DNA of 57,559 bases from an uncultured Pedobacter sp. GTDB lineage: Bacteria > Bacteroidota > Bacteroidia > Sphingobacteriales > Sphingobacteriaceae. The position numbers and the translations under genes were made by a program. Positions 46,474 to 56,869 of this stretch are shown here, piece after piece. The stretch is from contig NZ_CAMLHF010000007.1 of NCBI RefSeq assembly GCF_946479715.1, positions 1 to 57,559 on the forward strand, written 5' to 3'. Numbering within the stretch: position 1 is the stretch's first letter; every line of letters begins with the position of its first letter. The notes beneath the pieces were generated by a model, which saw nothing but the letters and a program-made list of their open reading frames with translations, did not search any database and was not told the origin of the DNA.

Positions 46474-47076
46474 CTAACTTTTAATTGTTCTAAAGGTCAA
46501 ATTAATTCTAGGTTGAGTTTCAATTACCGTCTTCGGAAGCCTATGCTCCCAGTAGTGTTGGGTCTCCCCTTTCATAATCAGCAAGCTACCGTGGGTTAAT
46601 TCAATAGAAACAATTGGCAGCTTATCTTTATAATTTCTGAACTGAAAAATTCTTGATGCCCCAAAGCTAACGGAAGCAATCACAGGAAATTTACCCAGAT
46701 TCTTTTCATTATCTCTATGCCACCCCATATAATCCTTACCATCGCGATAGTGGTTCAACAAGCAGGCATTAAATTTGGTATCAAAAGCAGTTTCAATACT
46801 TTCTTTTATTCTCTGTAAGGTAGCTGTCCACGGCAAAGCATTCATCTTAATACCAGAATAAGCGTAACTAACATCATCATCTCCATAAAAAGCAGTAAAA
46901 CGAGGCTGAAGAATAGTTTTTCCGAAAATCTTTATGGGTTCCTGTTTCCATTTGGTTTCCTCAGTTAACCTATCCAGATACATATAACTATCATCCTCCA
47001 TAAAAAAACCCGGATGAAAAAATGCTTCCCCGGGTATTGTTAATAGATTTACATGATCACCATAGATTTTTTCCAT
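46474..47076 (-). CDS. alkB: AlkB-like Fe(II)/2-oxoglutarate dioxygenase
   Basis: 200 residues. The Fe(II) ligands are in GWHRDNEKNLG (His and Asp, near residue 120) and in YWEHRLPKT (His, near residue 178); the 2-oxoglutarate-binding Arg is in PRINLTFRTI near the C-terminus. These match the AlkB family, which oxidatively removes alkyl groups from damaged nucleic acid bases. The substrate-lid segment (YSGIKMNALPWTATL) is of the AlkB/ALKBH2-3 kind. It lies 17 bp after the DinB-superfamily gene and is likely co-transcribed. Confidence 0.93.
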   Translation of the reverse strand: MEKIYGDHVNLLTIPGEAFFHPGFFMEDDSYMYLDRLTEETKWKQEPIKIFGKTILQPRFTAFYGDDDVSYAYSGIKMNALPWTATLQRIKESIETAFDTKFNACLLNHYRDGKDYMGWHRDNEKNLGKFPVIASVSFGASRIFQFRNYKDKLPIVSIELTHGSLLIMKGETQHYWEHRLPKTVIETQPRINLTFRTIKS

Positions 47077-52682: not shown

Positions 52683-55628
52683 TCAATCCATTACAGGATT
52701 ATCAACGATAGGTAGTTTTGCAAACCTGATTACCTCAACACTTGGAAAACCAAAATCCTCCACTACCTTACCCAATATCAAATAGCAACCTTTCCCCCTA
52801 AAAGGATAAGTAGGTGTGCTGTTGGGAAAATGCGTAGTATCAAAGAAATTTCCATCTGCATCCAGAAAAGTACCAAACCACATTTTCTTATTGTTCTTCG
52901 TATGCACAGTCTTTTCACAAACATACAATCCCACCATTTTTACCGTTTGCCCAACATATTGAATCAGGTTGTTTGTACGCACATCCCCCCTGTATGGGGT
53001 TTTCAATAGATCAAACATGGAAAGCGACAAAGGAAACCCAAGCAGTTCCAACTCATGATATGCATCTTCAAGCCTGGTATTAATCAGCTCCGGCAGTATA
53101 TAATGTTTGCTTTCCAAATGAAAAAGTTCTGCATGATTAACAGGCTTAACTTTACCACCCAACATCATATGCACCTCCCACAACAAAGTTTTCTTACTCT
53201 TACCTGTAAACCTTAAAGCTCCCACCCTAATCAAAATAATTACCTGTTCCAGCCCCATTCCTGTGCGTTTTACAAAATCCTCCAGATCAATAAATGCACC
53301 ATTTCGCTTAACCTCCTCAGGAATTAATTCTATAAATCTGTTCTCAAGCCCTTGTATACCAATAAGCCCCAGATAAGCGTCAATCCCTTTAATAGATACT
53401 ACAGGCGTACTTACATTTACACATGGCAAATGCACCTTTGCACCCGCTTTTTGCAATTCATGAACATATAACCAACGCGTATAAAACCCGCCATAATTAT
53501 TCAGCACAGCAACCATAAACTCACGAGGATAGTAGTTTTTTAAATGTAAACTCTGATAACTTTCTACTGCAAAACTTGCCGAATGTGCTTTAGAGAAACT
53601 ATAACCTGCAAAAGAGGATACCTGCCTCCATACCTCGGCCGTAATGGCCTCCGATCTGCCCAATGTCTTTGCTCCTTCATGAAACTTTTCTACCAGCTTA
53701 TTAAATTCTATTTTCGAACGATATTTACCACTCATCCCCCGTCTCAAAATGTCTGCATCCGTACCATCCATCCCCGCGTAATGAATACAGATTTTAATCA
53801 CATCCTCCTGATAAACCATTACCCCAAAAGTATCTTCCAGCTGTTCCTTCATTACAGGGTGCAGGTATTCTACGGCTTCTGGTCTATGAAAATTCTGAAT
53901 GTAAGCCTTCATCATACCTGATTGTGCAACCCCCGGTCTAATAATGCTGCTGGCTGCAACCAATGTCAGGTAATTCTCACAACCCAGCTTGGTGAGCAGT
54001 TGCCGCATAGCAGGCGATTCGATATAAAAACAACCAATACTATTGCCAGATTTCAACTTGTTATTTAGGTTAGCATCGTTCATAAACGCTTTTACCTGAT
54101 GGATATCTATTTTATGTTGCTGGTTTTCCTCCACCAACCTCACTGCTTCTTTGATATGTCCTATCCCTCTTTGGCTTAGTATATCGTATTTATCATAACC
54201 AATCGCCTCCGCCTCGTACATATCCCATTGTACAGTGGGCATTCCTTTGGGCGGTAAATCTAGTGCGGTGTAATAGGTAATCGGTTCTTCCGAAATCAGC
54301 ACACCCCCAGCATGAATACTTCTTTGATTGGGCATCTCCTTCATGATTTCGTATATGGCTGTAATCTTTTCAAAAGTAGGGTTCTTTCTATTTTCCACAG
54401 CTTTAGCCGGATCGGTAAAACCATCAATCTCAGCTTTTGGCAGGCCCATTACTTTACCAATCTCACGAATAATAGAGCGGTCTTTAAAGGTACTCATCGT
54501 GCCTAGCAACGCAGTATGATCTTTTCCATAACGCTTAAAAATATAATCCTGCACATCTTCACGCTCATCCCAGGAATAATCAATATCAAAGTCTGGGGGC
54601 GAGGTACGTTGTGCATTCAGAAACCGCTCAAAATACAAATCAAGTTCCAACGGATCTACATCAGTAATACGCAAACAAAAAGCCACGGTACTATTAGCTC
54701 CTGAGCCCCTGCCTACATGATAATAACCCTTAGACATAGAATAACGAATAATATCCCATGTGATTAAGAAATAGGCACAATACCCCAGGTCATTAATTAC
54801 CTTTAGCTCATTCTCTACTTTTCTTAGTGCCTCCTTATTGTTCTTCCCATAACGATAAATCAGACCACCCATTGCCAGCTTTTCAAGCAATGCTTTATCA
54901 TTATCCTTACTCCCTGTAAAAGTTTTACGGTTTAAGTGCACTTTCCCCTGCTCATAATTCATCCTGCAACTATCCATCAGTTTCCGTGTATTGTCCAGGA
55001 TAAAAGCGTATTTACTAAATTTAGCTTCCAGCTCCCCTGCCTGCAGGAACATATCAGTGCTTCTACATTTATCTTCAGGTACAATCATTGTCAGCAGGGT
55101 ATTTAAATCTACTCCTCGCAGATACTCATGTAAACGGTATTCGAGCCTATTGGCCACAAAAACAGGCTGTAATACAAGTAATTTATTTTTTATATGACTG
55201 ATATCTTTACCATGCAGGCTATGTAGTTCATCATAGCGAATTCCCAGATATTCATTTTCTCCTAATGGCCCCGTTACACTATCATAAGGATAAATTACAA
55301 CTGCATTTTTAAAAGGTTTTGCCTTGTCGGGCAATTCCTTTTGTTCCAGGTTATGCTCAGTCAGGAAATCATTCAATTCCTTCATCCCCTCCTTATCCCT
55401 GGCAACCCCAATATAAAGTAGTTGCTTATTCCGCCTAAATTCAATACCTCCAATAGGCTTAATACCGCTCTTATTACATGCCCTCATAAACTCCATAATC
55501 CCTGTAGAGTTATTGATATCTGTAAGCACCATCTGCGTAATCCCTCGAAAAGCAGCTTCCTTTATGAGCTTCTCGATAGACATAGTACCATAGCGCAGGC
55601 TATATTCAGAATGAACGTTCAGGTACAT
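52683..55628 (-). CDS. dnaE: Second DNA polymerase III alpha subunit (DnaE2/ImuC-like, PHP degenerate)
   Basis: 981 residues, shorter than replicative DnaE (about 1150 or more). It has an N-terminal PHP domain, palm/fingers with the catalytic Asp pair in PPDFDIDYSWDERE (near residue 346), HVGRGSGANS, and a helix-hairpin-helix/OB region. In the PHP domain the first His is replaced (NVHSEYS instead of HxHSxYS) and the later His in TDH is Ile (VLTDINNS), so metal binding and proofreading are probably lost. It starts 3 bp after the Y-family polymerase stop, forming one operon. Together they resemble the damage-inducible mutagenesis cassette, with DnaE2 performing translesion extension. Confidence 0.93.
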   Translation of the reverse strand: MYLNVHSEYSLRYGTMSIEKLIKEAAFRGITQMVLTDINNSTGIMEFMRACNKSGIKPIGGIEFRRNKQLLYIGVARDKEGMKELNDFLTEHNLEQKELPDKAKPFKNAVVIYPYDSVTGPLGENEYLGIRYDELHSLHGKDISHIKNKLLVLQPVFVANRLEYRLHEYLRGVDLNTLLTMIVPEDKCRSTDMFLQAGELEAKFSKYAFILDNTRKLMDSCRMNYEQGKVHLNRKTFTGSKDNDKALLEKLAMGGLIYRYGKNNKEALRKVENELKVINDLGYCAYFLITWDIIRYSMSKGYYHVGRGSGANSTVAFCLRITDVDPLELDLYFERFLNAQRTSPPDFDIDYSWDEREDVQDYIFKRYGKDHTALLGTMSTFKDRSIIREIGKVMGLPKAEIDGFTDPAKAVENRKNPTFEKITAIYEIMKEMPNQRSIHAGGVLISEEPITYYTALDLPPKGMPTVQWDMYEAEAIGYDKYDILSQRGIGHIKEAVRLVEENQQHKIDIHQVKAFMNDANLNNKLKSGNSIGCFYIESPAMRQLLTKLGCENYLTLVAASSIIRPGVAQSGMMKAYIQNFHRPEAVEYLHPVMKEQLEDTFGVMVYQEDVIKICIHYAGMDGTDADILRRGMSGKYRSKIEFNKLVEKFHEGAKTLGRSEAITAEVWRQVSSFAGYSFSKAHSASFAVESYQSLHLKNYYPREFMVAVLNNYGGFYTRWLYVHELQKAGAKVHLPCVNVSTPVVSIKGIDAYLGLIGIQGLENRFIELIPEEVKRNGAFIDLEDFVKRTGMGLEQVIILIRVGALRFTGKSKKTLLWEVHMMLGGKVKPVNHAELFHLESKHYILPELINTRLEDAYHELELLGFPLSLSMFDLLKTPYRGDVRTNNLIQYVGQTVKMVGLYVCEKTVHTKNNKKMWFGTFLDADGNFFDTTHFPNSTPTYPFRGKGCYLILGKVVEDFGFPSVEVIRFAKLPIVDNPVMD

Positions 55629-55631
55629 AGC

Positions 55632-56789
55632 TTATAACTCAATATTCAACACAGATGCCCTTGTTACTGCCTTTTCTCCAAAGCGCTTGCGAATCCTGTC
55701 CATTGCCTGCACCAGGCTATATTGCTCCTGCGATTCACTATACATATCAATTTGTTCAAACCCGTTTACCAGACTAGATAAACGTACACCAACAAGTCGC
55801 AACAACATCCTCTTGGTATATACCTGTTTAAAAAGTTCCCTTGCTTTTTGAATAAGCGTACCATCAAGGGAAGTGTAAGGAATAGATGCCTGCTTGGTAA
55901 CATCCTCAAAGTTGGAATATCTAATCGTTACAGTAATGCAGGCTGCAAGTTTCTTTTTTTCTCTCAGCTGAAATGCAATATCCATTACCATCGAAGTAAG
56001 CAGGTTGTTGATCATGTTTACATCTATGGTATCTGCTTTAAATGTGCATTGTGTACCAATACTCTTCTGCTCGGCATAAGGAACTACCGGACTATTATCT
56101 ATTCCTTTAGCTCTTTGAAGTAGCGATAACCCATTTTTACCCATCAGCATATTCATCTGATCCGGATGGATCTGTGTCAGCGTATAAATCTTCTTAATAC
56201 CCATATCACTAAGCTTTACAAAGGTCTTTTCGCCTAGTCCCGGAATTTTCCTGATTGAAAGAGGATTTAAAAAAGGTTGTACACCCGATGCTTCAACATT
56301 CTTCTCGCCTCTTGGCTTACATTCGTTAGTTGCCATTTTGGAAACCGTTTTATTTACCGATAGCCCAAAAGAAATTGGCAAGCCCGATTCCTTCATAATA
56401 GTTTGCCGAAGTTCATGTGCATAAGTCATACAGCCATGGAACCTATCCATGCCCGTCATATCTATATAATGCTCATCAATACTGGCTTTTTCAAACAGCG
56501 GCACCCTTTCCCTTATAATATCGGTAATTTCATGAGATGCTTTAGAATAAGCATCCATACTGCCTTTAATAAAAACCCCATGCGGACACAGCATCTTTGC
56601 CATTCTGGCTGGCATCGCTGCGTGTACTCCAAATTTTCGGGCCTCATAGCTACATGAAGTTACTACTCCACGATCCGAAATGCCGCCAATAATTATGGGT
56701 TTTCCAATAAGACTACTATCCTTTTTTAGCTCTACAGACACGAAAAATGCGTCCTGATCCATATGAATTATTTGCTTCCCTTCCCTCAT
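55632..56789 (-). CDS. dinB: Y-family DNA polymerase (DNA polymerase IV-like)
   Basis: 385 residues. The first catalytic motif DQDAFFVSVE (residues ~11-20) and the second SIDEHYIDMTG (near residue 105) carry the metal-binding acids of Y-family polymerases. A helix-hairpin-helix region (IRKIPGLGEKTFVKLSDMGI) and a little-finger domain follow, as in DinB. It bypasses damaged bases with low fidelity. It is followed 3 bp later by the DnaE2-like gene. Two tandem operators overlap its promoter. ImuB proteins lack catalytic residues; here they are present, so this is an active polymerase. Confidence 0.94.
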   Translation of the reverse strand: MREGKQIIHMDQDAFFVSVELKKDSSLIGKPIIIGGISDRGVVTSCSYEARKFGVHAAMPARMAKMLCPHGVFIKGSMDAYSKASHEITDIIRERVPLFEKASIDEHYIDMTGMDRFHGCMTYAHELRQTIMKESGLPISFGLSVNKTVSKMATNECKPRGEKNVEASGVQPFLNPLSIRKIPGLGEKTFVKLSDMGIKKIYTLTQIHPDQMNMLMGKNGLSLLQRAKGIDNSPVVPYAEQKSIGTQCTFKADTIDVNMINNLLTSMVMDIAFQLREKKKLAACITVTIRYSNFEDVTKQASIPYTSLDGTLIQKARELFKQVYTKRMLLRLVGVRLSSLVNGFEQIDMYSESQEQYSLVQAMDRIRKRFGEKAVTRASVLNIEL

Positions 56790-56811: not shown

Positions 56812-56842
56812 CAAAATTAAGCTAATAAAATTAGTAAAACAA
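56812..56842 (-). promoter_or_regulatory. Promoter of the dinB-dnaE cassette
   Basis: On the minus strand TTG (56840-56842) is followed after exactly 20 bp by TAATTTTG (56812-56819), a perfect TAnnTTTG. The dinB start codon at 56789 lies about 23 bp beyond the -7 box. One copy of the 24-bp operator fills the space between the two elements. Confidence 0.72.
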
Positions 56843-56869
56843 TTATTAAGCTAAATATATTAGCTAAAC
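56817..56869 (-). promoter_or_regulatory. Two tandem 24-bp operators, likely LexA-type repressor sites
   Basis: Two direct copies of TTAAGCTAA-N5-TTAG-N2-AAAC lie at 56817-56840 and 56846-56869 on the plus strand, repeated every 29 bp. The second copy contains the perfect palindrome AGCTAA-N5-TTAGCT; the first has one degenerate half (TTAGTA). Copy one occupies the promoter spacer, copy two lies just upstream of the -33 element. This is the layout of strong repression by a dimeric repressor, as for an SOS-like regulator. No repressor gene is in the window. Confidence 0.72.

Follow-up and report, generated by a model that had tools for sequence, protein, structure and literature searches.

Tandem CTAA-N5-TTAG boxes at the promoter of a Pedobacter dinB-dnaE cassette, very probably operators of the Bacteroidetes non-canonical LexA

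The window, i.e. the whole 57.6-kb stretch of DNA that was analyzed, carries on its minus strand a pair of polymerase genes preceded by a predicted promoter and two palindromic boxes:

56851..56863, palindromic, no strand: putative operator O2, core CTAA-ATATA-TTAG, directly upstream of the -33 element
56842..56840, minus strand: predicted -33 element TTG, 20 bp upstream of the -7 element, tentatively assigned
56822..56834, palindromic, no strand: putative operator O1, core CTAA-TAAAA-TTAG, between the predicted -33 and -7 elements of the dinB promoter
56819..56812, minus strand: predicted -7 element TAATTTTG, TAnnTTTG type
56789..55632, minus strand: dinB, Y-family polymerase of 385 aa with Pfam domains IMS and IMS_C, first of the two putatively controlled genes
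55628..52683, minus strand: dnaE, DNA polymerase III alpha-type protein of 981 aa, second putatively controlled gene, starting 3 bp after dinB

The dinB product matched one NCBIfam DNA polymerase IV model above its cut-off. The dnaE product matched Pfam DNA_pol3_alpha, finger, and PHP, and NCBIfam polc above cut-off. Among the best 80 loci of 144 relatives, dnaE directly follows dinB in 78; it was not seen after dinB at L127, a short locus, and at L128. The closest named relatives listed for the DinB protein were those of Pedobacter sp. V48 (98% identity), P. panaciterrae (97 and 95%), and P. foliorum (92%). The nearest genome compared was G001, which appears to be V48 and is so called below, with 40% of sampled 31-letter words in common with the window. 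Elsewhere in the window, positions 46474-47076 encode a protein that is AlkB-like by eye, and no exact CTAA-N5-TTAG core lies near it.

An initial annotation of this DNA had described two direct copies of a 24-mer, TTAAGCTAA-N5-TTAG-N2-AAAC, placed 29 bp apart, one in the promoter spacer and the other just upstream of -33. Both copies were found without mismatch at 56817-56840 and 56846-56869, at a distance of 29 bp, and the coordinates bear out their placement: the O1 core sits entirely between the -33 and -7 elements. With up to three mismatches allowed, the window contained five matches to the 24-mer as compared with a mean of 0.50 in shuffled sequence, and none of 100 shuffles reached five. 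These matches were the two copies themselves, one copy again on the opposite strand, and two sites elsewhere in the window. Exact CTAA-N5-TTAG cores occur only twice in the whole window, at 56822-56834 and 56851-56863. Both are palindromes with a fixed 5-bp spacer and thus have the dyad of a CTAA-N5-TTAG operator. The operator unit had been taken to be 24 bp long; the unit that is conserved is the 13-bp palindromic core.

Conservation was assessed in 81 dinB leaders, i.e. those of the best 80 loci of 144 relatives plus that of the window; the leaders are mutually related, some genomes contributing several (ASV28 three), and do not represent 81 independent events. As the comparison of cassette leaders proposed with the initial annotation revealed, every one of the 81 has one or more exact cores in the 150 bp before the dinB start; the operator lies in the promoter of an SOS gene and is kept in its orthologues. 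In 24 of the 81, the same 150 bp contain at least two exact cores. In the nine closest leaders the cores were mostly kept in spite of much change in the surrounding DNA; the V48 leader (L060) has O1 with one mismatch and O2 exact. When the leaders were aligned on the exact core, which makes the core invariant by construction, position -1 was A or G and position +1 was C or T, with an AT-rich, variable spacer and flanks. Most outer positions of the 24-mer vary among the 81 leaders, and the outer TTAAG and AAAC were accordingly rejected as determinants; changes adjacent to the dyad have also been reported to be without effect on binding (PMC8565304).

The leader DNA is very AT-rich, and some relatives have as many matches to a reversed control pattern as to the box, as would be expected if the palindromes had arisen by chance. 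Against this stand the persistence of the cores in the nine closest leaders and the outcome of dinucleotide shuffling: over 200 rounds, an exact core appeared in 0.5 of the 81 leaders on average and in 3 at most, and two or more cores in the window's leader in 0 of 200. Chance palindromes are thus scarcely credible as an explanation.

Among the leaders with at least two cores, the spacing of the last two exact cores ranged from 27 to 53 bp and was 29 bp in 7 of 24, which rules out a fixed 29-bp rule. The dinB locus of Chitinophaga costaii (L087), whose product is 75% identical to that of the window, also bears two exact boxes 29 bp apart; this gene was possibly transferred between families.

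The element TAATTTTG was assigned to the type TAnnTTTG, which we take to be the Bacteroidetes -7 consensus. The promoter had been called near-consensus, and its parts (TTG, 20 bp, TAATTTTG) are indeed present on the minus strand. The TTG is little conserved: it stands 19-21 bp before TAnnTTTG in only 18 of the 81 leaders (best 80 of 144 relatives plus the window), and the -33 element is assigned tentatively for this reason. An exact core begins 15 bp (32 leaders) or 16 bp (21 leaders) ahead of TAnnTTTG, together 53 of 81. In 14 of 26 relatives the composite pattern CTAAW5TTAGNNTANNTTTG occurred at 34 places, at only part of which genes were identified, and its reversed control at none. These counts indicate how frequently the operator interlocks with the -7 element in this group.

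Canonical LexA boxes read CTGT-N8-ACAG or GAAC-N4-GTTC, and neither had an exact match on either strand of the window's 150-bp dinB leader. The boxes of the window resemble them as dyad operators on SOS polymerase promoters but differ in sequence and spacing. A CTAA-N5-TTAG operator has been described for Bacteroidetes by Sanchez-Osuna et al. in 2021 (PMC8565304) as that of a "non-canonical LexA", an S24-family protein with a CI-like HTH that is structurally unlike LexA. Its reported targets comprise umuDC, recA, recN, dinB, ruvB, splB, imuA-imuB-dnaE2, and UDG-system genes. Electrophoretic mobility shift assays with mutated sites showed that changes in the dyad or in spacer length abolish binding, and mitomycin C was shown to induce expression, in both cases in other species and at other promoters. 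More than one box was found at several promoters, as in the window, where core and 5-bp spacer are identical to the published ones, and the Sphingobacteriaceae are one of the families credited with large regulons of this class (PMC8565304). The initial annotation had proposed a new repressor box. Given that motif, repressor family, binding, and induction were published in 2021, novelty is ruled out. The main text of that paper makes no mention of Pedobacter, and does not contain the words "overlap" or "cooperativ"; its abstract and Results give neither the promoter-operator register nor the spacing between boxes.

In the same paper, an operon of dinB and a polymerase III alpha gene is assigned to a sister motif, GGA-N5-TCC, which shares the dyad-N5 layout and the regulator superfamily and is likewise found before dinB, often with a polymerase III alpha gene. 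No GGA-N5-TCC was found in the 150-bp dinB leader of the window. It is also stated there that activation cannot be discarded pending data from a non-cleavable mutant; sites of this kind might then serve to switch transcription on after damage instead of keeping it repressed. For the present promoter we regard activation as very unlikely, since a protein bound to O1 would occupy the spacer of the predicted promoter and should keep RNA polymerase out.

The extent of the putative regulon was analyzed in V48, in which the pattern RCTAAW5TTAGY had 17 sites and the reversed pattern 2. Ten of the 17 precede SOS-type genes: recA (two sites, one of them located inside the preceding ORF, at its end), the regulator gene, umuDC, imuA-imuB-dnaE2, dinB-dnaE, an alkB-containing gene pair whose first ORF begins 171 bp after the site, and genes for rSAM-UDG, a PA0069-type radical SAM protein, and a DnaQ/GIY-YIG nuclease. 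The names ImuA and AlkB rest on NCBIfam matches below cut-off. Thus, the motif is found in the nearest genome before the S24 regulator, recA, and imu genes, where the initial annotation had advised looking for it. The other seven sites lie next to genes not known as SOS genes. By Pfam, these encode an HD-domain protein, a CoiA-nuclease-like protein, and a serine recombinase; by eye, they include an ArsR-like ORF and a long ORF whose start resembles that of an exported protein; two short ORFs had no Pfam match.

Three of the V48 loci deserve separate description. In addition to dinB-dnaE, the genome has a second mutagenic cassette, imuA-imuB-dnaE2, which is preceded by a box of its own (L216, G001:C7:71500-78500). 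The alkB pair (L146, G001:C7:16161) consists of a 152-aa ORF and an AlkB-like 2OG-Fe(II) oxygenase behind a box. The HD-domain protein (PF01966, 283 aa; L149, G001:C10:59167) also has a box upstream; it is not named as an SOS gene in the abstract or Results of PMC8565304.

Across 16 genomes of the genus, the pattern had 223 sites as compared with 135 for the reversed control. No excess was seen in G007 (14 versus 14), G009 (14 versus 16), and G016 (6 versus 10). Ten genomes outside the genus together had 15 sites versus 41 for the control, with an excess only in G026 (7 versus 3). Genome-wide enrichment over the reversed control is therefore weak in several relatives, and the control word may itself be non-random. 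An initial genome-wide pattern with three mismatches allowed was uninformative (297 forward matches versus 349 in the control). As to whether the motif occurs at random across the genome, it exceeds its control clearly in V48 and little or not at all in several relatives.

The candidate regulator of V48 is a protein of 258 aa with Pfam matches to HTH_3 (57.3 bits) and Peptidase_S24 (30.3 bits). Orthologues at E<=1e-20 were found in 22 of 26 relatives and in 15 of 16 genomes within the genus; G014 was the genus genome with no regulator at this threshold. For each of the 15 same-genus orthologues, the leader of the regulator gene contains two exact cores, at about -110 and -44, and the protein conserves ASAGY, GDSM, and VYKR, with the S24 cleavage residues (Ala-Gly, Ser, and Lys). 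The domain assignment by Pfam refers to V48, the other 14 genus regulators being assigned by homology and residues, and all of these proteins, and hence the regulator gene bearing the same box, come from relatives of the window. Outside the genus, an exact core was present at one of seven regulator loci examined (four further match rows were left out). In V48, the box-bearing intergenic region is shared by the regulator gene and a small divergent gene (L148:1540-1887), whose 116-aa product had no Pfam match and is GIY-YIG-like by eye only.

Several genus genomes encode more than one S24 protein, with up to four matches, and regulator paralogues are reported for some families (PMC8565304). The boxes might therefore bind a different XRE or S24 regulator, such as a paralogue or a prophage repressor, rather than the chromosomal SOS repressor. 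This is very improbable, given that 15 of 16 genus genomes encode the regulator, that its gene is preceded by these boxes in each of the 15, and that the only other S24 match in V48 at E<=0.001 is UmuD-like and has no HTH. With the non-canonical LexA system of PMC8565304, the system described here shares a candidate S24 regulator with a CI-like HTH (seen here in relatives) and, as putative targets, dinB, recA, umuDC, imuA-imuB-dnaE2, UDG-system genes, a GIY-YIG exonuclease, and the regulator gene.

Judged from sequence, then, the two boxes are very probably operators of the Bacteroidetes non-canonical LexA, which would repress dinB-dnaE until damage occurs; our confidence is slightly lowered by the poor conservation of the -33 element. 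The earlier assignment to a LexA-type or S24 repressor box at a translesion polymerase cassette is supported by the 81 of 81 leaders and by the V48 regulon. A repressor with a CI-like HTH and an S24 peptidase domain would bind the CTAA-N5-TTAG cores, and its dimers on O1 (and O2) would block RNA polymerase. DNA damage would give rise to RecA filaments and these to self-cleavage of the repressor at Ala-Gly, upon which the dinB-dnaE translesion cassette would be expressed. After repair, re-made repressor would close the cassette again; such a shut-off is expected because the regulator gene carries boxes too. The observation is correct and concerns a known kind of operator, ordinary in kind and unusually clear in form. 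It assigns this Pedobacter DinB-DnaE cassette to the SOS regulon already described for Bacteroidetes. Small additions beyond the 2021 paper are the HD-domain protein and the alkB-containing gene pair as candidate targets, and a pattern in the spacing of tandem boxes.

This pattern emerged from a search for pairs of boxes with AT spacers in 40 genomes of the genus and 161 of the family (9 common to both). It yielded 63 pairs, four of them repeats, i.e. 59 distinct loci, and 13 pairs for the reversed control, so that some of the box pairs may be due to chance. Genes at the pairs include dinB, imuA, umuD, recA, the regulator gene, and those for rSAM-UDG, PA0069-type rSAM, the HD protein, and a 166-aa protein. 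The spacings at 58 of the 59 loci fell into bands of 21-24, 28-33, 40-43, 52-55, and 61-66 bp, and one was 18 bp, with about nine identified genes represented. With a period of 10.5 bp, a Rayleigh test yielded R=0.40 over all 59 loci, R=0.50 for 36 gene-spacing combinations, R=0.48 (p about 0.001) for 28 collapsed combinations, and R=0.47 (p about 0.012) when restricted to the 20 whose gene was identified. The test was post hoc, made after the banding had been seen; collapsing was done by hand and removed promoter relatedness only in part, and one gene assignment is loose (the alkB pair, L224, 464 bp away).

Tandem operators are also a feature of lambda CI. The HTH of the Bacteroidetes regulator is of a related type; no sign of cooperativity was seen for this regulator. 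The spacing bands could mean that tandem boxes lie on one helix face and that the repressor, which derives from a phage, has kept a CI-like cooperative binding between neighboring dimers. We consider this doubtful, and rate it lower because several dinB spacings lie outside the bands: named dinB leaders at 27, 38, 39, and 51 bp were left out of the phasing test, as was the V48 recA pair at 83 bp. The 28-29 bp class, which includes the pair of the window, is 0.24-0.33 turn off a whole turn. The bands may instead reflect phased A-tracts in AT-rich promoters, and the 28-29 bp spacing at dinB could result from promoter geometry, the -33 region being left free between the boxes. If cooperative binding does take place, it would give a steeper damage threshold for mutagenic genes. 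A hold-out of 64 genomes from another family contained only three pairs, homologous to each other and spaced at 23 bp. Within the genus, relatives of the HD-domain protein have a box pair 53-54 bp apart at seven further loci (L237, L238, L239, L240, L244, L246, and L274).
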